In this document: positions 18,301-62,260 of the stretch, piece after piece
Layout of the letters: every line of letters begins with the position of its first letter
Position numbering within the stretch: position 1 is the first letter of the stretch
Assembly: GCF_035083965.1 (NCBI RefSeq)
Contig: NC_089738.1
Coordinates: forward strand, 13,170,734-13,234,733
Source: Branchiostoma lanceolatum
Taxonomy: Eukaryota > Chordata > Leptocardii > Amphioxiformes > Branchiostomatidae
DNA: 64,000 bases
Reading direction: 5' to 3'
Notes under the pieces: model-generated
The model's database searches: none
What the model saw: the letters and a program-made list of their open reading frames with translations, nothing else
Told to the model about the DNA's origin: nothing
Program-made: the position numbers and the translations under genes

Positions 18301-19988
18301 GTCACAGCTATCATGGTACAATCTTGTCGGGATACTTGGGAAAAAAGAGCCCCTCAATAGAAAAATCATCAGGCTCCTACTTACTCCCATTTCTCATCAA
18401 CACGCTTGAACGCAACTTTCTTTGCGCTGATGGAAGCTCTCAACTCATTCGTCACCTGCTCTAGCTGTTGCTTCAACTCCTGTGACAAAAAATAAAATGC
18501 AGGTCAACGTTCACTCAGAACAAGCTTTTGATTGATTGGTTGACAGATTGTTTGGGTTCCTTGTGGCTTGGTTTCAAATCTTGAATCATACAAATTACTT
18601 TTTAGAACACAATAGTAATGGACAAGAAGATGTCTTCATGGAAAAATCAGTAGCAAAGATAGTTTACCTTGATTCTGTCCTCAGGTGACTTTGCAGGAGA
18701 TTCTGCAACTGTGGGGAGTGATGGTTTAGTTCCCTCTGCCGTGGTCAGCTTCTCCATGTCAGTACTGGCCACACTCTGGATGGAACGAGCGTCTGCGTCA
18801 ACAAACTCCTCATCTGACAGTTCCTCCAGTCCGGGCTCCTCACTGACCTCAGTCTCCTCCAGGACTGCTGTACCTTTTGACCCATCGTCTGTCACCTCAG
18901 CCTGTGAGAGGCAGGAAGTTGTTTCTGTTATGTTCTAGTTGATCTTTTTCATTATTATCAGTGCTTGAGTCTAATCCGAGTGCAACACAATGTGGTAAGT
19001 AAGTGATATCTATCATATTGTCTTCATAGTGTGAATGGTGCAGTGATTTGGGAACAGGTCCCTTTAGCAGTGTAAATCGTGTTCAGCATGAAGGACAGTC
19101 ATGTTTACCTGTGTGTGGATGGTGTTCAGCACCAAGGACGGGTGTGTTTACCTGTGTGTGGATGGTGTTCAGCACCAAGGACAGGTGTGTTTACCTGTGT
19201 GTGGATGGTGTTTAGGACCAGGGACAAGTGTGTTTACCTGTGTGTGGATGGTATTCAGCAACAGGGACAGGTGTGTTTACATGTGTGTGGATTGTGTTCA
19301 GCACCAAGGACAGGTATGTGTCCCTATGTGGGGATAGTGTTCAGCACCAAGTCCCCTCTATTCTAAATCAATTCACAGTAACGTTATACACAATGAGAAA
19401 GAAAAACAAATTATGCCATGACCAACCTTCCCCTTTCCCTCTCCCTTATCTCCACCACTGAGCAGGTCCAAGCTGTGAACAATCGGCACCCTCTTCATGA
19501 AGTCCTGTATGATAAACACAGGTGAGAACAGTACTGAGAACAGGTCAAGAAAGGTATTGGTCATATAACAGTTAGCTAGTATGTAACATTAGGTTGAATG
19601 TTTTTCTTACCTCCTTGTAGATATCATAGTAATGTTATACAGTATGAATGAATGACTGCGAATAAAGTGATGTCATCTTGACTTCTTGTTTCTCTGTTCT
19701 GTACTAAAAGTGTCCTTAGTATTGACTTCTTTTCTGTTCTGTACTAAAAGTGTCCTATTGACTCGTCTCTGTTCCGTACTAAAGGTGTCCCATTGACTTC
19801 TTGTTTCTCTGTTCTGTACTAAAGCGTCCTATTGACTTCTTCTCTGCCTGTTCCGTACTAGACGTTTCCCTGCTCACCTTGAAACCTCCGAACCAGGGCT
19901 CGCTGCTCACCGCGGGTCTTCCCTGGTCCGCCTCGGCCGAACCGTCCGGCCGGCCCGCCGACACTGCTTTCCTCGTGAAGCTTTCCAT
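15393..19988 (-). CDS. Unrecognised coiled-coil, acidic-repeat protein with C-terminal Cys-Cys-Cys (left copy)
   Basis: Family not recognised. Ten exons in transcript order: 19988-19878, 19504-19427, 18901-18668, 18479-18385, 17924-17781, 17627-17303, 17103-17009, 16554-16420, 16253-15875, 15551-15393. All junctions keep phase, giving 584 residues. The protein has no signal peptide or membrane span, so it is probably cytosolic. Three block types alternate: acidic Ser-rich stretches (EEPGLEDLSDD, DADARSIQSVASTDME), a helical 95 nt exon (KQQLEQVTNELRAS), and a Lys/Arg-rich exon (LRRSYKKAEKAHKRIKKTM). The series occurs twice, so exons 3-6 and 6-9 look like an internal duplication. The end is strongly basic and stops in KIRCCC, compatible with prenylation or palmitoylation at a membrane (inference). 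The mirror copy is at 34798-39997. Both look intact and start with facing promoters. Confidence 0.85.
19079..19351. repeat. 43 bp minisatellite, about 6 units (left arm)
   Basis: Unit holds GTGTTCAGCACCAAGGACAG then GTGTGTTTACCTGTGTGTGG. It lies in intron 2 of the left-arm gene. The right arm has the same array, inverted, with about 15 units at 35392-36052. Because 43 is not a multiple of three, reading through the array gives Cys/Val-rich open frames that are artefacts. Confidence 0.95.
19676..19866. repeat. Tandem repeat in intron 1 of the left-arm gene
   Basis: About five units of 35-40 bp built from ATTGACTTCT, CTCTGTTCTGTACTAAA and GTGTCC. The right arm counterpart is 34917-35067. Confidence 0.85.
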
Positions 19989-34797: not shown

Positions 34798-37700
34798 ATG
34801 GAAAAATTCACGAAGAAAGCACAGTCGGCGGGCCGGCCGGACGGTTCGGCCGAGGCGGGCCAGGGAAGACCCACCGTGAGCAGCGAGCCCTGGTTCGGAC
34901 TTAAGGTGAGCAGGGAACGTCTAGTACGGAACAGAGAAGAAGTCAATGGCACACTTTAGTACAGAACAGAGAAGAAGTCAATAGGACACTTTTAGTACAG
35001 AACAGGAAAGCAAGAAGTCAATAGAACACTTTAGTACAGAACAGAGAAATAAGAAGTAAGTCAATAGGACATCACTTTATTCGCAGTCATTCATTCATAC
35101 TGTATAACATTACTATGATATCTAAAAGGAGGTAAGAAAGACATTCAACCTAATGTTACATACTAGCTAACTTTTATATGACCAATACCTTTCATGACCT
35201 GTTCTCAGTACTGTTCTCACCTGTGTTTATCATACAGGACTTCATGAAGAGGGTGCCGATGGTTCACAGCTTGGACCTGCTCAGTGGTGGAGATAAGGGA
35301 GAGGGAAATGGGAAGGTTGGTCATGGCATAATTTGGTTTTCTTTATCATTGTGTATAACGTTACTGTGAATTGATTTAGAATAGAGGAGACTTGGTGCTG
35401 AACACTATCCCCACACAGGGACACATACCTGTCCTTGGTGCTGAACACAATCCACACACATGTAAACACACCTGTCCCTGTTGCTGAATACCATCCACAC
35501 ACAGGTAAACACACCTGTCCCTGGTCCTAAACACCATCCACACACAGGTAAACACACCTGTCCCTAGTGCTGAACACAATCCACACACAGGTAAACACAC
35601 CTGTCCTTGGTGCTGAACACCATCCACACACAGGTAAACACACCTGTCCCTAGTGCTGAACACAATCCACACACAGGTAAACACACCTGTCCTTGGTGCT
35701 GAACACCATCCACACACAGGTAAACACACCTGTCCCTAGTGCTGAACACCATCCACACACAGGTAAATACACCTGTCCTTAGTGCTGAACACCATCCACA
35801 CACAGGAAAACACATCCGTCCTTGGTGCTGAACAACATCCACACAAAGGTAAACACACCCATCCTTGGTGCTGAACACCATCCACACACATGTAAACACA
35901 CCCGTCCTTGGTGCTGAACACCATCCACACACAGGTAAACACACCCGTCCTTGGTGCTGAACACCATCCACACACAGGTAAACACACCCGTCCTTGGTGC
36001 TGAACACCATCCACACACAGGTAAACATGACTGTCCTTGATGCTGAACACGATTTACACTGCTAAAGGGACCTGTTCCCAAATCACTTTACCATTCACAC
36101 TATGAAGACAACATGATAGATGTCACATACTTACCACAGTGTGTTGCACTCGGATGAGACTCAAGCACTGATGATAATGAAAAAGATTAACTAAAACATG
36201 ACAAAAACAACTTCCTGCCTCTCACAGGCTGAGGTGACAGACGATGGGTCAAAAGGTACAGCAGTCCCGGAGGAGACTGAGGTCAGTGAGGAGCCCGGAC
36301 TGGAGGAACTGTCAGATGAGGAGTTTGTTGACGCAGACGCTCGTTCCATCCAGAGTGTGGCCAGTACTGACATGGAGAACCCGACCACAGCAGAGGGAAC
36401 TACACCATCACTCCCCACAGTTGCAGACTCTCCTGCAAAGTCACCTGAGGACAGAATCAAGGTTAACTATCTTTGCTACTGATTTTTCTATGAAGACAAT
36501 TTCTTGTCCATTACTATTGTGTTCTGAAAAGTAATTTGTCTGATTCCAAAATTTGAAACCTAGCCACAATGAACCATAACAATCTGTCAACCAATTACTC
36601 AAAAGCTTGTTCTGAGTGAACGTTGACCTGCATTTTATATTTTGTCACAGGAGTTGGAGCAACAGCTAGAGCAGGTGACGAAAGAGTTGAGAGATTCCAT
36701 CTGCTCGAAGAAAGTTGCGTTCAAGCGTGTTAATGAGAAATGGGAGTAAGTAGTAGCCTGATGATTTTTTTATAGAGGGACTGTTTTTTTACCAGGCATC
36801 CTGACAAGATTGTACCAGGATAGCTGTGACTAGAACATTAACTGTCTCACATTAGATGTACATATATGTCTCATTGAAACCTGGGGTCTTGTGGCGTAAC
36901 GGCAGGATTTTCGACTCAGAACCAAGGGGTTCCCGGTTCGAATCCCCTGCTGCCACTGATCTTGTGCCTTTGGGAAAAAAGGCACTTAACACTCCACCCA
37001 AGTGTAAACATCGGGTACATAATGTGTGTGGGTCACGACATCAGCAATAGCTGCCTGTGTCCCATGTGTATTGCACTGTTGCAATTCCAATAAATCCAAA
37101 TCCAAACCTGTCATTAACTTGACATACCACAAAATCAACCTGGGAAGTCAGCACATCTTTGAGCTTCATACATAAGAAAACTGATCATTATCAAAACTAG
37201 GTGCCTATAGAGTCAACAGCTAGCAGTTTAGACATGATATGTGCATTTGTGATCTTAGTATAACAGACACCTGTGAAATTCTTAGACAGTGTACTTTTCA
37301 AATTATTGCGAACAGGAAAAAAACATGTATATTTCTCTAGAATACTTACTATATGTAAAGCTACAGGATGAAATTTGTAGCCTTTCTTTCTTGAGCTTAA
37401 ATTCCCCATGGTTGGTAAGTGTTTTTATGTGTTGATGACGACAGGGACGGGCTGAAGGAGTTGCGCCACTCATACAAGAAGGCTGAAAAGGCCCACAAGA
37501 GGATAAAGAAGACCATGGCCAGCCTGCAGAAACAGGGGTACATCGACCTCATGGAAACTGCCCCTCAGGCCCAAGTATCCTCACGCAGGTGAGAAATTCA
37601 TGCAGAAATCAGCAGTAATGACTCTTAAGTTTGTAAAGGAACAGAACTGAGCACTGATGGATTTTTGGCAATGCCTCAGGGGCAGAGCCTGGAATCTGTA

Positions 37701-42237: not shown

Positions 42238-45200
42238 TTACTCTTGAGATCCTGATGGTTCCACAGCCTCTGCTAACTGGACCACGTTCTGTGCCTGCAG
42301 CAAGGATGGCTTGTCAATCATTTTTCCCTCATACACAAACGCCCCCTGGAGAAAATAGATGGAAAAGCAGCATTAGTGCAAAGAGATGCAAACATCATAC
42401 AAATCTGAGGAATCTAAGGTTGTAAGTATGACTGTCTAATTATTTCTTTATCTGGAGAAACATGTCTGTATCTGGTAAAATATGGAACAGTTTGCTGGAA
42501 AGACAAAAGTTGTTATGAACTCCACATACATGTACTTTTGATGGGCTGAATGTACATTGGTTGTTCAAATATTACGCTGTGTACCTTCTCTGTTATGTAC
42601 CTGAAGGTACACTAGTAATGTGTATATACAGCATTCTTGACATTCGAGTGTCAGAAAAGAAAACCTTTGTGGTATTATACGTTTGCAATTTTCAAGGTAG
42701 CTACAGAATTTCACATTCAAGTTCTGAAGAGAGGTTTCGTAATTGGGTTTAAAAAAACACAATACATACCTTTCCCTCCTGTTGGTGCTGTTGAAATGCC
42801 TGAATGAGCCCACGTGCCCAGACTACCCTCTCAGGACTGGGGGAGAACGCCTGCTGGACAATGGGCACCTGGAGAGGGTGGATCACCTGTTTACCTGGGG
42901 GAATACAACAGATAATGATGGTTAACAACTGTACCATATACATTATGAACTTTTCTCAGTGTTGTCACTGTACTTAAATTAGTCATTCCTTCACTTACTA
43001 CCATTTACTGTTTACTACCACTGTCTCACTTGTTTTGAATCATCAAGCTTATATGTAAACGTCTTATTCATGTATTCTTTGTAATCATCTGATAATGGTG
43101 TCTTATATGCCCATATAGGCATGGCAACTTTGTCACAACACACAATAATCAACTTTCATTCATTTATCCAATAACATACCAATTTTGCATTTTGGTAAGA
43201 AATAACATTCCAAAGCTATAAGATAATGATGATAAAAGTTACCAGCCATGACCATGTACATACCTGTAAACCCCATCTTTGCTCCTTCCTCTGACTGTCT
43301 TCTCAGGCTCTCTGTATCTGCAGAGAAGAGTTTCAAAAATTGATTCAACAGAATTATCTTTTGAACTGTGTGGTCTTTGATAAATGATGAAAACCAGAGA
43401 CAACGATGTCTGACTTGAAAATGCCATCTTATGGTCTTACACATATGACCATTTCCCAGCCATCTTTGACCTACCTTTGAAGTCTATGGACACCAGGTCA
43501 ATGGCCTGAAGGCCAAAGGCCTTTGCTGTGACGACGACCTTCTGTCTGGCATACATCAGCTCCTTGGCATCACTAGTTCTGCTGGCACCTGGGTAACAAC
43601 ATGATAGAATGTTGCTTTTCTCAGCTTGCAATTATTTTTTTTCAGCATGTATTGTGGCTGTTACAATGCTTATAAATCTTTTTGATAACACATCTACTGT
43701 GGATTCAAAAAGTATTGCAATGAATATATGTGCTGAATCACTTTCCCAACAACAGAAGTGTAGCTTTTCCTGGTGCTGACTAACTGTCCCAATAACACAA
43801 GTGTAGCTGTCCCTGGTGCTGAATAACTGTCCCAATAACACAAGTGTAGCCGTCCCTGGTGCTGAAATACTGCCCCAATAACACAAGTGCAGCTGTCCTT
43901 GATACTGAATGACTGTCCCAAAAACTGTCCCACTAAAGTCCTCTTCAAAGAGACTTGCAATAGCCATCTACTTTATGAATAGTTTCAAATGGGTTTTCTA
44001 ATAGAAAATATTGTTCAAATAACAATGCCCACCTATATCTGCACAAAAGTCGTCTGACCCAAAGGTGACGGCAGCTAGTCTGAAGGGAGACATGTCCACC
44101 AGGTTCCCGGCTTCCTGTAGAATGGCCTGGAGGTTCATCAGGCCCCTCGCACTCTCCACCATGGTGATCAGGTTGAAGATGGGGTTAGCCTCTATCTCTG
44201 CCACCGCAGCGTTTAGGTTAGCAGCAAACTGTGGTGGAGCACATCAGACCATCTGGTAAAGATAGCTCCCAAAGAACTGCTATTGGCTCGACTACGAAAA
44301 CCTGTCCTACAAAGTTCGTAACATAGCATTAAAGGCTAATGTCACGGTTACATTGATCAGTTTTGTGCTTGAAATGGGAATGCCATTCTAGTACCTACCT
44401 AACATCCTGGAGAATTTTTCTTTCCTTGAAAACGTTGGTCCAATTTGGAGACTCTTGGGGTTAGAGGGACCAGCTGGTCTAATTTTAAGCTTTACCAGGT
44501 TGGTCAGAATTTGTTCAGTTCACCAGTGTTTTGGTGTAAGGACAGATCTGAGTTCTGGTTTGGTATTCACAGCGGAGATGGCGATAGCAGAAACTTGGGC
44601 CAAAGATAGGCTTTGTTGAGAAATTCCATCTGTTCTACAAGTTTGAAGATGGCAGCCCCTTATATGATCTGACCACCACACCTGTTAAAAGATGACATGT
44701 CACTCACCTGTTGAAGTTCCTCCACACTGTCCACCTTAGGCAGCATGATACCAGAGGGCAGGTTCTTGGCTTGTAGAATAGCCAACAGGTCCTGTTAGGA
44801 ACAAGTCATCAAAACATGGAGCTATACTTTGGGTACTTCAGGTGAAGAAATACACAGCGTGAGTTTCGTCACCACACGCAGTGTTGGCACGCGCGTGTAA
44901 AACTTCCCGTAGCGCGATGTTGGCACGCGCGTGTAAAACTTCCCGTAGCGCAATGGTGGCACGCACGTGTATAGCTTCTCGTAGCGCGATGTTGCAACGT
45001 GCGTGTAAAACTTCCCGTAGCGCGATGTTGGCACGTGCGTGTAAAACTTCTCGTAGCGCGATATTGGCACGCTGGGCGCCCGCACAAAGAACCGTTGAAA
45101 CGACCGCACAAAGAATGTGTGACATGTGCGTGTGTTCCTTCCCCTAGCACGATGTTGAAACGCCGAGCGCCCCCCCCCCCACCGATCTTAAAACGCCGGG

Positions 45201-48668: not shown

Positions 48669-51602
48669 ATGTCAGCGTCCTCATACTACTTAAAATCCGG
48701 TCCGGACCTGCCATATACTGAATCTCGAGGCAGACAGTTTTTAAGTCTGGTGACCCAAGACAACCTAGAGGCTATGCAGAATTTTGAGCTCAGAGATGGC
48801 GACGTTGTGACCATTGGATACCCAAAGACCGGTAACATTTTCCTTTAATATTGCGACTTCAGCGAGTGCTTAACCGAGCTTGCATGGTCGTCACAAGACT
48901 TTTTATGTATTAGGTAAACATTATCTCTATATGTGATGCTAATTTGTGAATTAAAAAAATGTATCGTCATTTTGCTTGGATACAATCTTGTCGTAATGTT
49001 TTAATCAATAAACAAAGAACTGTATACGTATGTGATCATATACCGTCGATTTTGATTGGCAACACATACAATCTTAAGTGTTCATAGTGCTTGATTTGGA
49101 TGGCCTTGACAGGTCATGTTTTCGGCCTTGACAGGTCATGTTTTATCAATAAAACGAAAACCCTTTATGTATGTTGATTCAGCATTTTGTGATACTTGCT
49201 GGTCTCTGTTTGTATTGTGTGCTAAACTATGCAGTTTAACTGGGAAAAAAATTAATCATTTTTGTTATAAAAAACAAAGGTACCCATTGGATAAGGACTA
49301 TTGTGCGTCAAATCCTGCACGAAAAGAGAGAAAGGTGCGACGAAGACGTGGACTTTGTCCTGGAGCACACGTACCCAGGTAGACCGCCATGCCACGTGGA
49401 ACTGCAAGAGGTCGCTTCTCCAAGGCTGATGCACACGTTTCTTAGCAGAGATCTGGCGCCACCAGGACTAGCTCGTCCCAGTCAGAAGGTACATGTGGGT
49501 TTTTATTTTCATAAGGCACCAGTAAATGGATAATAAATAAATAAATGGAGCACCAGTACGTTTTGTCGCATTAGTATTGAAAGGCAAGCTACTAGGGAAC
49601 TGCATGTGTTAGTATAAACTATTCACATTTACTGCTTTCAGATCAAAGTGTTGGTTATGTTGAGAAACCCCAAAGACATTTGCATATCCTACTATCGCTG
49701 GTCTCAACACGTCAACTACTTAAAAACACCTCAATCCTGGGAGACGTTTCAAGGAGACTTCCTGTGTGGAAATGGTGAATCACATTCTCTTTGTTTCATT
49801 TACGTCCACAACAAAACCAATCGCATGCTATGGTCAATCTTGAACTAAATAGTCCTAACTAAAGTTCACCTTGTCACTAGATCGCTTACTGTATCAAATA
49901 CTCCGCTTAGACTTATACTTATACTAGTGTACAATCTAGTGATAACTCTATACGCTATTTCCGCACACGAAGTAAGGCGCTTACCGACAAGGTTTCGACT
50001 AGTCCTCTGTACCTTCTAAAGTTGATTTGTGCCGAAGCCTACCTCACTTGAGGTAGAACACAGTTTTTGGCCGTACTACATTTTGTACCTGCGTCACAGA
50101 ATACTGTGACAATTACTGTGTTCTGCGACCTTGACCATCCCTCAACAGGGACGGGGGCCGATACCGACTTCCGGTCACCTTTGACCCGTTGCTGACGTCA
50201 CACTTCCGCTTAGGTCAAGTGACGTAGGCTTCAGGTCAAATCAACTTGAGAAGGATCAGGGGACTGGTTGAAAGCTTGCTGGTAAACATTTACTTTGTGT
50301 ACGGAAAAAGCGTTTGAATTTATCACTATAGCCTCCCTCTCACTGGACCCACAGCACGCTGGCGGCGCCGCTGCGGCCGATCGAATTGACAAAGCACTCA
50401 ACGAATTTCATCGACAAAAAAACGAATCTTTGTAAGCTTTGTGTGTTTTGTTGTCTTTTTGGTCATACTTGTACGTTTTGAATGATATTCCCAATATAAA
50501 GTCAAGGGTAACACAAATCCAGTTTAGGACGCAGTAACGCCGCCAGCGTGCCGCGGGTCCAGTGAGAGGGGGGCTTAAGTCGATTACCGCCAGAGATGAA
50601 CCTTGATTCCAAAAAAAAGTAAACCTTCTTGTTCATACAAATAGTATACTATCTAGTTACTGTATCATTCGGACATCATGTTCCTCTACGCTGTTAGTTC
50701 AACGAGGGTCGTATTACGACCACGCCCTTGGCTGGTGGCAGATGAAGGACGACCGTCACTTTCTCTTCATCAAGTACGAGGACCTCAGGAAGGTAATTAC
50801 CACAAAAGAACTTTCGCTTTCGCTGTTTATTGAGTCGCGTTGAGTCGTTATTTCTTATATACTGCAATTGAAGTAAAGATCAAGCTATGAGTATGAGGAA
50901 TACTTTTTGGGATGCAATTTGAACAGAAAATGGGTCTGTTTGTTACGCACTTTTCGTACATCAAAACGTTGCTAAAGCGGGCACACTAGGCTGCGACCTG
51001 TTGGCGACTCTTTGCGAAGGACATTCCCCATTTTGACCGCGAACAAAGTTGTCGCAATAATTTGTTTCCAACAGGTCACAGTCCAGTGAGATACCCGCTT
51101 AACGTCAACGACCAACAGGGAACACTGCCCCCCAAATGGTTCAGCAAAACTATTTTTCTAACACGTTCGTATTGACTTTGCCGCAATCTAACGTCATACC
51201 TACTTGATGCTTTGTAGAGAATGTTTTCGTCGGTGAAGAAGATAGCAGTGTTCCTGAACAAGCCACTCAGTGACGCAGAAGCTGAGTTCGTGATCAAGTC
51301 TTGCAGTTTTGAGACGCCAATAGAGCCAGGGAAAAAACTCGCCAGGATAAAGAGAAAGGGTAATGGACAATATCAAAATCACTTGCGCTTGGCATTTTAT
51401 ATTATTATTATACAGATAGCTACCTTTCACTTCCCTGATAGAGTTGAACTTCGTAGTCTGAAGAGTGAGGTTGTTCTTTTATTGCCTTCCAGGAGTCGTA
51501 GGTGACTGGAAGAACAACTTCACCGAGCCACAGAGCGAGGCGTTCGACAAGCACTCCAAAGAAAAACTTAAAGGAAGTGGTCTTGAGTTTGAATATGAGT
51601 AG
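48669..51602 (+). CDS. Cytosolic sulfotransferase (SULT) with replaced catalytic residues
   Basis: SULTs move sulfate from PAPS to small phenols, steroids or amines (family knowledge). Exons: 48669-48831, 49280-49488, 49642-49774, 50698-50792, 51218-51359, 51493-51602, giving 283 residues with all junctions in phase, close to the usual 290-300. PAPS-binding motifs are intact: YPKTGTHW (5' phosphosulfate loop, Lys kept), LRNPKDICISYY (3' phosphate Arg and Ser), and RKGVVGDWKNNFT, the C-terminal signature, split by the last intron. YYDHALGWWQ and FIKYEDLRK also match. The catalytic segment normally SPRLIKTHLP reads SPRLMHTFLS: the catalytic His becomes Phe and the helper Lys becomes His. So it binds PAPS by prediction, but its catalysis is uncertain. 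It lies between the two CLYBL genes on the opposite strand. Confidence 0.92.
50330..50575. repeat. MITE with about 45 bp inverted ends (CTCACTGGACC core)
   Basis: AGCCTCCCTCTCACTGGACC and on to GCACGCTGGCGGCG at the left, inverse at the right ending GGTCCAGTGAGAGGGGGGCT. In intron 3 of the sulfotransferase gene. Confidence 0.85.
50976..51099. repeat. Small inverted-repeat element (AGCGGG ends)
   Basis: Left AGCGGGCACACTAGGCTGCG-ACCTGTTGG, right CCAACAGGTCACAGTCCAGT-GAGATACCCGCT, imperfect inverses. In intron 4 of the sulfotransferase gene. Right end shares TCCAGTGAGATAC with 52964-53192. Confidence 0.65.
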
Positions 51603-52792: not shown

Positions 52793-52885
52793 TCACAGTT
52801 CTACAGATTCAGCCATCTGGAGTATGCTCTGTGCCTGAAGCAGCCCTGGCTTGTAGATCATTTTTCCTTTATATTCAAAAGAGCC
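52793..52885 (-). other. Alternative last exon of CLYBL-B with Asp to Tyr change
   Basis: Good acceptor (TTTTTTCAG) then GSFEYKGKMIYKPGLLQAQS, ILQMAESVEL and stop: 31 codons, phase 0, the same as the proximal last exon at 53220-53309. The family sequence at this place is MID(K/M)P; here it is MIYKP. Exon 8's donor at 53827 can reach either exon. Confidence 0.8.
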
Positions 52886-55800
52886 CTGAAAAAACGGAAA
52901 TAAAAGAGTACAGGAGGTTAAAGAAATCACCAGGGTTACAGGAGAGAAGTATTTGTTAAGTTGGTATCTCACTGGAACACACCAAATTGCACTAGGAAAT
53001 TGGGCCAACTTTCTGCCTATTTTCCCTTGCGGTCACACTGACATGTGACCCATTAGAAAATACATGACCTCTGCAACCAAAATGGCCACCTATGAAATGT
53101 CACATTCTTAGTACTTACATTTAAGATTTAGGCGACAAATTGGTGCCACTTTGCTACTGCCTTTCCCAATTTGGTGCAGTCCAGTGAGATACACTCTTGA
53201 GGCTTGATGACACGATGCTTCACTTTTCTACCGCCTCTGACTGAACCATATTCTGTGCCTGCAGCAAGATTGGCTTGTCAATCATTCTTCCCTCGTACAT
53301 AAACACTCCCTGGAGAAAATAAACAAAAAGCAATACAGACCTTAGGCATCTTTTAAGACATCATCAAATGCTTCATTACACATCTGGCTGCAACTGTCAA
53401 CAGATAAACCAAGCTTGCTGTTTAAGTATGAGATAGTGTACTGGAAAAACATAGTGAAGATTTGATCAATTGGTTCTTGTAATCGCCCGCTGCTATTTTT
53501 CCCAGATTGAAAAAGAAATTCACCACACCTCCCATTCAGGAATTCTTACTCACTACATCACTATGATACTCATGAAAAAAGACTATGAAAAGCCTCAAAA
53601 ACATGCTAAAGACACTGAGCCGGACCCTACATCTGCTTGGAGATAAATGACCCCAATCGCCTCCTGCTTGAAGACTACTGTAACAGCTAAGGGCAGTCAA
53701 AAATCTAGTGCACTTTCTTATTGTGTTAGTACAAAGTTTTTGGCCTGTAAAATGTTAATGCCGACACAGATTACCTTTTATGCCAACAATAATTATAACT
53801 GCTCTAAAACACAGTGTTCCCACATACCTTTCCCTCCTGTTGGTGTTGTTGAAATGCCTGAATGAGCCCACGTGCCCAGACTACCCTCTCAGGACTGGGG
53901 GAGAACGCCTGCTGGATAATGGGCACCTGGAGAGGGTGGATCGCTACTTTCCCTACAAGAACAACATTGCCATGGGTTATGCATGTAGCCTGCAGGTTAC
54001 TGTTATAGTTCCTGTGTGTCTCTTGCTATTTTCGGAGAGGACAGAAGAGACTTGGGACCTATGATAGGTTTGGATTCCAGGATTACACATTATTATACAT
54101 AATTGTACATGATTTTCATTTTCATAATTTTTTGGTGGCAGATGGCTTTCGATGTAAAGACGAAGTAGTGTAGGTTTGGTTCCCAAGAAATCCGGCAAAC
54201 AAGAGACAATGAGAGCTGACAAACAATATGAAAACAGCATACAATAGGGGCAAACACATAAGCCTGCTAAGAAGACTAGTGTACACTTTTGGGCAATACA
54301 ACATATTCATATTAATCTTAAAGTACATTTCTTTTATGAAACCTTTCTGGGCTTATCAAAAAGTCTCTCTTTAATACAGTGCATTTTTGCTATCATAATC
54401 CATCAACAGGTTTAAGTTGAAAGACAATCATGTAGTTGTCACATACCTGTAAAGCCAAACCTGGCTCCCTCCTTGGCCTGTCTTTTAAGACTCTCTGTAT
54501 CTGAGCAAATGTAGTAACGAAACAGGTACAAGTATTCATACAGCACTTACTTATGTGCTTCACAAATTTCCATATGCACTGGTACTGGGACAACAAAAGT
54601 GAAAAGTTGATAACTGCACAAATATAACATTTTGGAGTAACTTCACAGCTCTGAACTTCTATTTCCTTACAGTTGACTAAGCAATGCAGGAAACATCAAA
54701 TTCAAGGTAGTGGGGTGGGTGTGTTACTGCCAACACTCAAAAGGCAATGGCTACGGATTACGTTGAATTCGATCAGGCCTGCTTTGCTCAACACTAGATT
54801 CAGCTGTCAATTACAATTGAATGTACAGCTTACACTCTACTTTGAATCCGAGAGGTGATTCAACTGCAAGCAAATAGAAAATTTATGCATATACAAATGC
54901 ATGCCTCTTGTAGAGTACATTAGTTACCAAGGATTCTTACACAACTGTTATGCAATAAAATCTTTATCTGCCACCTACCTTTGAAGTCTACAGAGGCATA
55001 GTCGATGGCCTGCAGGCCAAAGGCCTTTGCTGCAAGGACAACATTCTGTCTGGCATACAGCAGCTCTGTGGCCTCACTGGTTCTACTGGCACCTGGGAAA
55101 CAAAGGCAGGAGGTCAAGATCTGATGTCATAGATCTAAAAATAACAAGTTAGACTTCGATGAAGTTTAGACATCCGAGTAATAAGATATGTCAAATAGTA
55201 GTTACTGGAGCAACTGCGTATGATTTTGGAAACGGTCAGATGTTTCAAGTAGCAAAAACCTGGTTAAAAACCTGCTGATCGACAAATCTTGCTCATTGTC
55301 ACTGACGAAAAGTAGCGAATGTTACTTAAAACGTCTGACCGTTTCCAAAATCATTATCCAGTTGCTTGAGTAACTGCTATCTGGCGTAACAAGTTAGACT
55401 CTTTTGGAAATCCCAGTTTTGTACTATTTTGAAGTGGCACCACTGGTCCAAGTTGCATATTACAATTATTTCTCAAATACCTCTAGCTTTGTATTGTTCA
55501 AGTGTTATCTTGTAGACCATTCAGCACCAAGGTCAGCATCCTTTACATTGAAAAGAATATTATCAAACCCAAAAACAACTTTTGTGTTCATAAATAAGTC
55601 ACTAGATACCAAAGACAGCAACCAAATGAACTCTTTCCCAAAACCCTTTGCAAGAAGAAGTCAATTTACCTTCTAACTGTTGCCGGTTCTCCCGAATTTA
55701 CCGCTTATGGTTGCTTACACTCCTGAACTTACCGTTAGCATTTTGCCTTGTTCCCTTGCAGATCCTTGTTTATGCCGGAGCTCCTTTGCTGCTCCTATAC

Positions 55801-58800
55801 TCCTGTAATTAACTAGGACGGCAAGCAGCTTAGCTGATTAAGAAAAAAGAACTACCAACCTATGTCTGCGGCAAAGTCTTCTGACCCAAACACCAAAGCA
55901 GCTAGTCTGAATGGCGACATGTCAGACAGGCTGACGATTTCCTGCAGAATCGGCTGGAGGTTCATCAGGCCTTTCGCACTCTCCAAGATGGCGAACAGGT
56001 CAAAGGTCGGGTTAGCCTCTATTTCAGCCACAGCAGTGTTTAAGTTAGCAGCAAACTGTAGAGGGAAAAAGATATGATATATCATTAAGTCAATAATGTT
56101 GGTGGCAGACTTAATTTCAAAGTAGGAGGGTAAAGGACTGCTTTTCCTAGCATTTTAAGTTCACGGTTGGAACAATTCCGTAATGTTAGCACAGTTGTAA
56201 GACGATTGAAAGGCACATTCGCAGTGTCATGAAGAGGTCGCCACAAAAACTGCAAAAATTAAACCACTGCAAACTTTTCAAGATTTACGGTACATAATGT
56301 ACATGGTATGACTAGATTACTTGCACATGTTTTCTCCATCATGATCAGTATTGTCAGTACTGTCCAGTATCTCTAATAAACTGAAAAGAATACATGTAAT
56401 CTGTGTGTTTTCAAGAAATATTGCATATCTAAAAATCCAACTCTTGCAATATAACCAACCTGTGAAGCTGGTGTGTTGCATCAAATAATGGTTATATCAG
56501 TCGAAAGTACATAATATAACACATGCTATACGTATACCTACAGTTTGCATTTCTTCAACACTCTCCACCTTTGGTAGCACAATAGCTGAGGGCAGGTTTT
56601 TTGCTTGTAGAATAGCCAACAGGTCCTATTAGGATGGACAAAAGGAAAGTCAAAACAGCATTATAGGGATTTTCATGCTAAGATATGTAAGAAGAAGAAT
56701 CTATGACTTCCTGTCAGCACAATAATGTAAATTTTTAAAAATTGGACAAACGTATTTACATGTATAGTATTAAAGGATCTATCTGTCATACAGAAATTTG
56801 TATCTATTATATGTGTCACTTTGAATAAGCTATATGACAATGATGCAAATGATCCGTCAATTCCTCTGTGATTTTATTCGGTGGTTATAGCAAACGACCA
56901 TGCCATTGACACCATATACACCTCATCATGTTAAGCGCCATGAGGAAATACCTGGCATGGTTCTCCTTTGGAAACCAGATGAGAATCGTAGGCGTGGTTG
57001 CCCTTCTTTGACACTTAAGAAGATGTGAGTCTTCAAGATGATGGACTCCACTCTGTCATGCTCGACAGGGACCTGTGGAGACATTTGTGTCGCCTCACAG
57101 AGAATGAACTGAACTGAAGTGTGTCATTAACTATATATCATCATTTTATGGTAGGAAATAAAGATACACTTACATCGTCTGCCAGTCCGCTGTCCACAGA
57201 GTTGATTCTCACAGCGCACTCTGTCCTGCCGAAGTCTACCTCGTCTAACATTCTCGTAACTGTTTTTCTAGCTTCATCCTGGTGAAAAGACACAGCGAAC
57301 TTTAATATAGACATTTCTGCAAGGAAGAGGAAAACAATAGTGGCCCACATTGGCAATAGCAGGGGAAAAAAGCAGAGAGCCCAAACATTTGTTGGATTCT
57401 GAACCTTTAGAGAAATATTTGTGCTGTGCTAACAAAAAACACTAAAAAAAACACTCAAGCATCATTCCCTGAAACAAAATTCCTAAACCAGTGGTTTATT
57501 TTGTGACCATTTTCAAGTTAGGCAAAAAACATCCACCCAACCAGTAGGCCATTATGTTCTGTTAGGCACACTGAGAGACAACACTATGAGCGTGTGATCC
57601 ACTAGTTAGGCAATTTTTCTCAAGGAGAACAGTGGGTCAGACAAGGGTCAGGCTACTAACCATTATTTTCTGCCTCTATGGCTATACTATATTGATACAG
57701 AAGTCAAATTTTCTCAGCAGAATTTTTCACTGGAAATTCGAAGCTACAAGAAGAAGACTTCAAAACATCAATATTTTTTTCCTAGACCTTTTTGCTGGGT
57801 GCTACAGCGTCTTCACAGTCTATAACAACACAGTCCGCGTCAAAAGTTGGAATCTTGCGAATTTTCCTCTCATCGTTCCCGGCTACAAACAGTAGCGCCC
57901 GTCGGGGCCTGAAGATGGAGGAATGTTGTCCTGGAGCACTACAGTAGGAACGCAGGGGGGTGGAGAGTCTCACTGATGTCTGGAACAGAACTCTGCAGTA
58001 GAACAACACAGCACATAGGATACTGGAATTCACTTTATCTTCACGGTAGCAAAATTTCAAGGAAAATTGACTTTTTCACTGAACTTTAACTTCATGGAAT
58101 GGACGTGTGAATGAATCATAAATGATCACAACTGGTTTTCCACAGTGATGATAAGTTCACGCGATACAGAGGTGACAGTGAGAAACAGTGAACATGAAAG
58201 AAACAAGAATTACAGAACATTATTCTGAATACAGTACGTCACAGTCAGACTTGTACCAGTGACCACCAATCACCACTTCTACAAAACCACCTTTTTGGTG
58301 GTCCCTTTGATGTTTTTTCCATCTGACACAAGCATTAAGAATCCTGCCTGTAGCAGGCCAACTGTCCGCAATAGACCAGATTTTCTTGGTCCCCTGAGTG
58401 CTCTTCTTGGGCAGGTTTGACTACATTATTTACATAATTCTAATAAGTCAGTGGTGTTTTGGGCTTGATGAACTAGTCTCCAAAAGCTGATGCTCGGTTC
58501 AGTGTTTTATGCATAATTTCTAAAGCATTTTCTATATATTTCCGATGGTTTGCGATTTCATCTCTTTGCCTCTTTCCTACTTTAGGAGCAAACACATGCT
58601 ATAAACACTGAGCTGAACCTACACATGTGCTCGGTAATTATGATAATAATGATAATGATGGAAGATGAGCTGATTTTCTTGGCCAAGCAAATTAAGTTAA
58701 ATCTCACCCTTTAACAGTACCTCAAAACGTTCTGAATGTGATTGTTCAATATATTAATTCAATGTGTTAATTTTGTGAAGTGGTTTCCTACGAAAATTCA

Positions 58801-59670: not shown

Positions 59671-62260
59671 TACCAAAGACCAAAACGACAATGCTAGACA
59701 GCTTCCTCGACTCAATTCTTACCGGTCCGAGGCGAGATTCCAACCGGTCCGAGGCATGATTCCAACCAGTCCGAGGCATTTCCAACCGGTCCGCGATACA
59801 TTTCCTTACGTGCTGCGGTAGAATTCCAACCACTCCGCGCCCGTGAGAATTTCCTGCCCTACGCGCTGCACTGCGCTGCGTTCCTCGACAGAATTTCCTG
59901 CCCTACGCGCTGCCCTGCGCTGCGTTCCTCGACAGAATTTCCTGCCCTACGCGCTGCCCTGCGCTGCGCTCCTCGACAGAATTTCCTGCCCTACGCGCTG
60001 CCCTGCGCTGCGCTCCTCGACAGAATTTCCTGCCCTACGCGCTGCCCTGCGCTGCGTTCCTCGACAGAATTTCCTTTCGCGCTACGGCAGAATTCTAACC
60101 GTACCACGGCACAGCCCCCTGTCCCCCACGCTCATACAGTGGACGATCCCAGATGGGTCAAGGGTCACTCGTGTTGTGAATGTGAACAGCTAGTCAGGTC
60201 GTGTCGATGTTGAAAACTTTTTCAGTGCTTCGTTCTGACTATCACCATCTCTAAAAACACGTGCGTGCAAACTAAAAGGAAGGCCTGATTGTCAATATCA
60301 ACTAGACTCTACCAGTCTCCACGGGTCGCTGGGAAAATAGTAGAAATTAGCCAAATAGAGTCAAATGTTTTAAGGGAGTCGGCTACGGAGATAAGGTCAA
60401 ATTGGCAACCCAGGCACTTTCACCACAAAACAATGTTGTGTAATATGCACATTTAAATATTGGCCATAAAATTCATTGACAGAAACATACAAAAGATATT
60501 CTTGTTCAGTCCCAGCCATGAATAAAATCGAATGTTATGGAAGTGCTATCATGTCCAAACGGGATTATAGGACCAATCTGTTACCAGTAGTCTGTGTTGT
60601 CCATGTATGAACTTTCATCAAATAACTCGATCATGCGATATGCTGAAAGGACTAAAAAAAACGTGGCCAACTTGAACTTTCACCACCGTAGGATTGTCCT
60701 GCGAGACAGGTCCGTTTATTTCAGGTTAAGAATCTGAAATAACACAGAAACAAGATGCAAGCTATAGTCACTCGTGTTGAACGTGAACTGCGAAAATATA
60801 AACTTTCAAGGATAATGTCCTTCGCTAAAAGTATCGGGGACCTTTTTCATAACGGTAACATTACGATTACGTGTTTCATGGTACTCTACCATGGTGTTGA
60901 CGGGTCGACGTCGCCGTGTGTCATATGCATTTGCTGTTGCAACAACCGTGACAGCAATAAAACCGGCTTGGCTCTGTTTAAATTATGATATTAAAGTTCA
61001 AGAGACATCAAACCTGACACTGTCAGTACTGCAGACTATAGTATATAACGTTAACGTTATATCATATGAGTAGGCGGTGTACTTGACGGGATCGGTACGG
61101 AGGCATCCTTCTCTTCCTCAGCCAGCTCTCCTTTTATATAACGTTATACTATAGCTTGCATCTTGTTTCTGTGTTATTTCAGATTCTTAACCTGAAATAA
61201 ACGGACCTGTCTCGCAGGACAATCCTACGGTGGTGAAAGTTCAAGTTGGCCACGGTTTTTTTAGTCCTTTCAGCATATCGCATGATCGAGTTCTTTGATG
61301 AAAGTTCATACATGGACAACACAGACTACTGGTAACAGATTGGTCCTATAATCCCGTTTGGACATGATAGCACTTCCATAACATTCGATTTTATTCATGG
61401 CTGGGGCTATAACAGGGTTTTCCCGTGACTGCACAAGAATATCTTTTGTATGTTTCTGTCAATGAATTTTATGGCCAATATTTAAATGTGCATATTACAC
61501 AACATTGTTTTGTGGTGAAAGTGCCTGGGTTGCCAATTTGACCTTGTCTCCGTAGCCGACTCCCTTCAAACATTTGACTCTATTTGGCTAATTTCTACTA
61601 TTTTTCCAGCGACCCGTGGAGACTGGTAGAGTCTAGTTGATATTGACGGCTTCCTTTTAGTTTGCACGCACGTGTTTTAGAGATGGTGATAGTCAGAACG
61701 AAGCACTGAAAAAGTTTTCAACATCGACACGACCTGACTGGCTGTTCACATTCACAACACGAGTGACCCTTGACCCATCTGGGATCGTCCACTGTATGAG
61801 CGTGGGGGACAGGGGGCTGTGCCGTGGTACGATTAGAATTCTGCCGTAGCGCGAAAGGAAATTCTGTCGAGGAACGCAGTGCAGGGCAGCGCGTAGGGCA
61901 GGAAATTCTGTCGAGGAGCGCAGCGCAGGGCAGCGCGTAGGGCAGGAAATTCTGTCGAGGAGCGCAGCGCAGGGCAGCGCGTAGGGCAGGAAATTCTGTC
62001 GAGGAACGCAGCGCAGGGCAGCGCGTAGGGCAGGAAATTCTGTCGAGGAACGCAGCGCAGTGCAGCGCGTAGGGCAGGAAATTCTCACGGGCGCGGAGTG
62101 GTTGGAATTCTACCGCAGCACGTAAGGAAATGTATCGCGGACCGGTTGGAAATGCCTCGGACTGGTTGGAATCATGCCTCGGACCGGTTGGAATCTTGCC
62201 TCGGACCGGTAAGAATTGAGTCGAGGAAGCTGTCTAGCATTGTCGTTTTGGTCTTTCGTA
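59671..62260. mobile_element. Fold-back DNA element with 1.1 kb inverted arms
   Basis: Left arm 59671-60768 and right arm 61148-62260 are near-perfect inverse copies around a 379 bp centre. Outer ends read TACCAAAGACCAAAACGACA and its inverse. CTGATT flanks both sides (59665-59670 and 62261-62266), a likely 6 bp target duplication. Each arm holds short CCGGTCCGAGGCA repeats near the end and about five 44 bp CG-rich units (59848-60070 and 61858-62084). Long inverted arms with internal tandem repeats are the hallmark of fold-back or Galileo-like elements. No transposase is seen in the centre, so it is non-autonomous. Open frames across the 44 bp units are repeat artefacts. It lies just upstream of CLYBL-B. 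Confidence 0.88.

Follow-up and report, generated by a model that had tools for sequence, protein, structure and literature searches.

Can a CLYBL gene of the lancelet Branchiostoma lanceolatum end in either of two last exons, one of which replaces a catalytic Asp with Tyr? CLYBL ties the breakdown of itaconate to vitamin B12, and a literature search returned no paper on CLYBL in lancelets among the matches listed. An earlier note on this DNA had claimed that the gene CLYBL-B can swap its last exon in this way; we treat the words "can swap" as a prediction from sequence, and consider below the exons, the residue, the age and constraint of the second exon, and the splice signals on which such a choice would depend.

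The minus strand of the window (the whole 64,000-nucleotide stretch analysed, positions 13,170,734 to 13,234,733 of NC_089738.1) carries a tandem pair of CLYBL genes, CLYBL-B at about 59050 to 52793 and CLYBL-A at about 47300 to 42238. Exons 2-9 of both were located by tblastn, and CLYBL-B likely also has a short exon 1, with its ATG at about 59050. The features that bear on the question are as follows, with a slash for the exon boundary.

54446..57992, minus strand: exons 2-7 of CLYBL-B, encoding the barrel; exon edges approximate.
53828..53952, minus strand: exon 8 of CLYBL-B, with the donor AAG/gtatgt, which could join either last exon.
53220..53309, minus strand: proximal last exon of CLYBL-B, coding part and stop; GVFMYEGRMIDKPILLQAQNMVQSEAVEK, with the Asp lid (MIDKP).
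52964..53192, no strand assigned: MITE-like hairpin element whose 26-nt terminal inverted repeats are 88% complementary; it lies past the proximal stop and ahead of the distal acceptor.
52793..52885, minus strand: distal last exon of CLYBL-B, coding part and stop; GSFEYKGKMIYKPGLLQAQSILQMAESVEL, with Tyr replacing the lid Asp (MIYKP).
42238..42345, minus strand: single last exon of CLYBL-A (MIDKP), the yardstick for both last exons of CLYBL-B.

The HpcH/HpaI barrel (PF03328) was present in all three proteins tested from the CLYBL-A and CLYBL-B set, and human CLYBL was the best solved relative of each gene (E 1.3e-95 for CLYBL-B, 3.3e-106 for CLYBL-A). The barrel residues E46, D47, R78, E142 and D177 were invariant in an alignment of CLYBL-A, CLYBL-B, human CLYBL and three bacterial sequences. 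With their roles in handling metal and substrate taken from the accessible part of a study covering malyl-CoA lyases (PMC3832036), and the correspondence read off the alignment, the metal and substrate residues (the Glu-Asp pair, Arg, Glu and Asp) appear intact in CLYBL-B.

In exon 2 of CLYBL-B (within 57992-57788) a Pro shared by CLYBL-A and 80/80 relatives (the best 80 of 555) is replaced by Ala (PGN to AGN), so CLYBL-B may differ from CLYBL-A in the enzyme body too. Exon 8 of CLYBL-B (53952-53828) and that of CLYBL-A (near 42894-42770) are 94.7% identical across 133 bases by blastn, with a dS of 0.08 as against 0.48-1.19 in exons 2-7, suggesting that gene conversion confined to exon 8 has likely occurred.

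The earlier note had described two homologous last exons in series, both in phase 0 and each with an acceptor and a stop, and both their coordinates and their homology are borne out. Exon 8 ends at 53828 with GAGGGAAAG/gtatgt; the proximal exon opens at 53309 behind the acceptor ttttctccag/GGAGTG and its stop ends at 53220, while the distal exon opens at 52885 behind ttttttcag/GGCTCT and its stop ends at 52793. Both exons follow exon 8 in phase 0 with an open frame and a TGA stop. When the proximal exon was searched against the whole window, it matched the distal exon at E=3e-6, and the last exon of CLYBL-A shares 65.5% amino-acid identity with the distal and 75.9% with the proximal exon, values that together exclude chance similarity of the two CLYBL-B exons. 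Adjacent, homologous and in the same phase, each with its own acceptor and stop, they have the arrangement of a tandem-duplicated alternative last exon. The matching phase is weak evidence, since phase 0 is what any copied CLYBL last exon would show. The contrast of MIDKP in the proximal and MIYKP in the distal exon is likewise confirmed in the sequence, and the column of the D-to-Y change is unambiguous, CLYBL-A carrying D. Both CLYBL-B exons stop at the same place, with TGAAG, whereas the CLYBL-A protein goes on for six codons more. We found no second last exon downstream of that of CLYBL-A (tblastn to E=10, window).

What the change from Asp to Tyr would mean depends on the identity of this residue. 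Of 15 solved relatives matched, five were aligned at this column, and all five have Asp; the human Asp lies 18 residues ahead of chain residue 315. We take the human protein to end two residues after chain residue 315, which places the lid acid at Asp320. Human CLYBL is given as 340 residues in the accessible part of a preprint (PMC12724605), which uses the trimeric protein as a scaffold and calls its D320A mutant catalytically inactive. In malyl-CoA lyases, as far as the available text of PMC3832036 describes them, a C-terminal lid shuts the active site of the neighbouring subunit in the trimer and carries an Asp (318/299) proposed to donate the proton; this Asp is conserved across the superfamily, with Glu in its place in a thioesterase cluster. 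A similar contact appears in the part of a report on Rv2498c that we drew on (PMC6689899), where the C-terminal domain touches the neighbouring CoA substrate. For the lancelet proteins, both the in-trans action of the lid and the part played by its Asp are thus taken from published work, in the portions available (PMC3832036, PMC12724605).

We investigated conservation of the lid in bacterial and archaeal relatives retrieved with a barrel-only pattern, which left the lid column itself unselected by omitting the last exon. Among the best 80 of 555 such relatives, the column held D in 45, E in 34 and S in one (acidic in 79/80), and Tyr in 0/80, all of these being prokaryotic genes. The lone S belongs to L051, whose long tail suggests a fused protein and makes its S in the lid column doubtful. 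A scan of genome contigs with a pattern drawn from the CLYBL-A protein alone gave 60 pattern matches and no relative, and 568 records from a tblastn of plasmids stand outside these counts. The distal product, having Tyr, lacks the acidic lid residue (Asp or Glu). It keeps five of the six conserved lid positions (G, G, M, P and A), defined as those conserved in at least 70% of the best 80 of 555 relatives or of their 45 Asp-type members, and only the Asp is changed. The suggestion of the earlier note that the changed residue is human Asp320, an active-site lid acid needed for catalysis, is therefore backed by the alignments, by conservation and by the D320A mutant as described in the available part of the preprint (PMC12724605).

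The distal exon is old. Its dS was 1.22 from the CLYBL-A last exon and 2.12 from the proximal exon, compared with 0.43 between CLYBL-A and the proximal exon, all three being values from a gapped codon alignment with about 19 synonymous sites and large errors. Across exons 2-7, dS between CLYBL-A and CLYBL-B ranged from 0.48 to 1.19, or about 0.63 pooled (77.5 changes over 182.3 sites), so that, by these estimates, the distal exon is no less diverged at synonymous sites from either of the other last exons than the two genes are from each other. The proximal exon is without one codon that is common to CLYBL-A and the distal exon, indicating that the present proximal exon is not the source of the distal one. 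A recent copy of the proximal exon is ruled out by this gap together with the dS of 2.12. A sensitive blastn between the two gene regions aligned exons 2-9 with at most about 23 bases of flank, introns and UTRs being otherwise gone; one weak extra match of 29 bases was out of register (E 0.46). The distal exon aligned to the last exon of CLYBL-A from 21 bases upstream to a few bases short of the stop, and, as judged from this alignment, behaves as the other exons do. It may have arisen by duplication within the gene or may be part of an older third copy.

The amino-acid sequence of the distal exon has changed much less than its synonymous sites, with dN of 0.21 from CLYBL-A and 0.27 from the proximal exon. 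In a codon model of the three sequences (29 aligned codons, the proximal gap codon being treated as missing data and codons beyond left out), omega was 0.23 on the distal branch and 0.39 in the background. Fixing the distal omega at 1 cost 3.74 log units (LRT 7.48), and 0/200 parametric bootstraps were as extreme. We also simulated the divergence between CLYBL-A and the distal exon, in 1500 runs for each neutral share: at most 10 amino-acid changes and no stop were obtained in 0.33% of runs when all of the divergence was neutral, in 6.7% when half was neutral and in 27% when a quarter was neutral. By these estimates the distal exon has therefore been constrained, under purifying selection, through much of its history. 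In a two-phase model with a neutral tail on the distal branch, neutrality over the last 50% cost 1.73 log units, over the last 60% 2.12 and over the whole branch 3.53, and neutrality over the last half falls inside the 95% limit. Constraint may have lasted up to the present, and a recent stretch of neutral drift, covering about half of the exon's history, is also compatible with the model.

The splice signals allow either exon to be used, and favour the proximal one. Scored with a matrix built from 9 of 15 acceptor sites (6 were dropped, their coordinates lying a base or two off the AG), the proximal acceptor reached 17.8 (top 0.10% of 4049 minus-strand AGs) and the distal acceptor 9.9 (top 0.62%), the distal score being helped by homologous acceptors in the training set. 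Both have 16/18 pyrimidines upstream of the AG. No AATAAA or ATTAAA was found from the proximal stop up to the distal exon, nor in the 793 bases past the distal stop; the nearest AATAAA of CLYBL-A is also far, at 1.18 kb past its stop. The hairpin element (229 bases, RNA fold -89 kcal/mol) takes up most of the 334 bases that lead from the proximal stop to the distal exon, and a 22-base match to the terminus of the element occurs at 51079-51100. Because of the acceptor scores, the lack of a poly(A) signal between the exons and the hairpin-filled gap, we favour a plain competition of acceptors before a shared 3' end, with the distal exon as the minor choice.

We consider it an even call whether the distal exon arose long ago by tandem duplication of the CLYBL last exon and has been retained for most of its history as an alternative last exon of CLYBL-B. 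It could instead be dead, either as a remnant of a third CLYBL copy, since lost, that lay between CLYBL-B and CLYBL-A and ended in this exon, or as a disused alternative exon. On this view it was constrained during its use and drifted afterwards, the D-to-Y change being part of the drift; we regard the explanation as a real possibility, though a doubtful one. CLYBL is already tandemly duplicated here, phase and acceptor would accompany any copy, and the high synonymous divergence from both other exons is as expected of an older third copy; a neutral last half of the branch also fits, a neutral share of one half giving the observed state in the fraction of simulations stated above. However, tblastn to E=10 across the window found no CLYBL exon beyond those of A and B, and blastn of the gene regions found no convincing flank similarity, so that neither other exons nor flanks of a third copy were seen nearby. 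Once the hairpin element is subtracted, the proximal stop and the distal exon are only 105 bases apart, and a third copy must therefore have lost exons 1-8 while keeping its last exon and acceptor. The retention of five of six conserved lid positions also speaks against a dead exon of either kind.

Two further explanations were weighed. The distal exon might be noncoding, as 3' UTR of proximal transcripts, included either by read-through or by splicing downstream of the stop; a donor such as the GTAAGT at 53118 would then give a decay-prone mRNA. Proximal transcripts may well contain the distal exon, there being no poly(A) signal ahead of it, and the GTAAGT at 53118 is the one such motif between the exons, but GTAAGT occurs 19 times on the minus strand of the window and this copy falls within the hairpin element and may be there by chance. 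Since noncoding use also leaves an omega below 1 unexplained, we hold this to be improbable. Alternatively, the Tyr might be a sequencing error or a rare allele, and the distal exon an ordinary second lid exon with Asp; a change from GAC to TAC needs one base and the evidence is a single sequence, but the window is without N and the surroundings of the codon are unremarkable, making this very improbable.

If CLYBL-B does use the distal exon as an alternative ending, the donor of exon 8 would join either acceptor, the better-scoring proximal one giving the normal enzyme and the distal one being chosen less often or under regulation. A protein ending in the distal exon would combine an intact CLYBL-B barrel with a C-terminal lid bearing Tyr for the family Asp. 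Because the lid acts in trans, a Tyr lid would strip the acid from the neighbour's site and not necessarily from its own, its own barrel still being servable by an Asp lid opposite. We infer for such mixed trimers that the number of active sites would equal the number of Asp lids and that activity would fall with the share of Tyr lids, the outcome being graded attenuation and not an all-or-none dominant negative. Tyr might also permit a different reaction, just as the thioesterase cluster is distinguished by Glu in the part of PMC3832036 consulted here. That splice choice sets the number of working sites per trimer, with Tyr lids either blanking neighbouring sites by their share or redirecting the lyase, is a tentative and rather unlikely proposal. 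Expression and usefulness of the distal exon are themselves predicted from the genomic letters, at about even odds; counting against its use, a dying exon could also lose a catalytic residue, and its acceptor scores below the proximal one.

Human CLYBL is not known to have a second last exon. The human citramalyl-CoA lyase (PDB 5VXC, 5VXO and 5VXS) is a trimer with the lid Asp320, in place of which the distal exon has Tyr. The malyl-CoA lyases and CitE-like enzymes place their lid on the neighbour's site with Asp 318/299, and Tyr is absent at this position both there, as described in the available part of PMC3832036, and in the best 80 of 555 relatives; the relatives compared are prokaryotic genes without splicing, unlike CLYBL-B. 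Switching between homologous exons at catalytic sites is itself already known: in the accessible part of a survey of homologous mutually exclusive exons, which allowed terminal exons, nine events affect catalytic sites (PMC7954323). Such swaps, as in fly CG42249 (PMC7954323, in the same part) and PKM1/PKM2, exchange variable residues, as the CLYBL-B pair would. Unlike them, the CLYBL-B case is predicted from sequence and concerns a terminal exon with a residue meant for the neighbouring subunit; a terminal exon bearing a lid that acts on that subunit is what would be special here, if true. Serial alternative exons of Drosophila Serpin 42Da likewise exchange a functional loop of one protein, according to the portion of PMC4006314 available, although there they retarget an inhibitor, whereas the distal exon of CLYBL-B would remove a catalytic acid. 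Should the Tyr-lid form be produced, CLYBL-B would offer a clean example from nature of a splice choice that takes away a single catalytic residue while the remainder of the fold stays as it is. Since the lid works in trans, the share of the isoform should then scale activity, and the pair would be an ancient one of terminal exons whose choice is traceable across lancelet species.

Repeats also occur elsewhere in the window. Upstream of CLYBL-B we identified a large palindrome (59671-62260), its arms forming three blocks of 98-99% complementarity, which contains 44-base tandem arrays at 59846-60075 and 61856-62085. Three tandem arrays with a period of 43 bases were found at 19079-19351, 35391-36050 and 43730-43925, the last of them in an intron of CLYBL-A.
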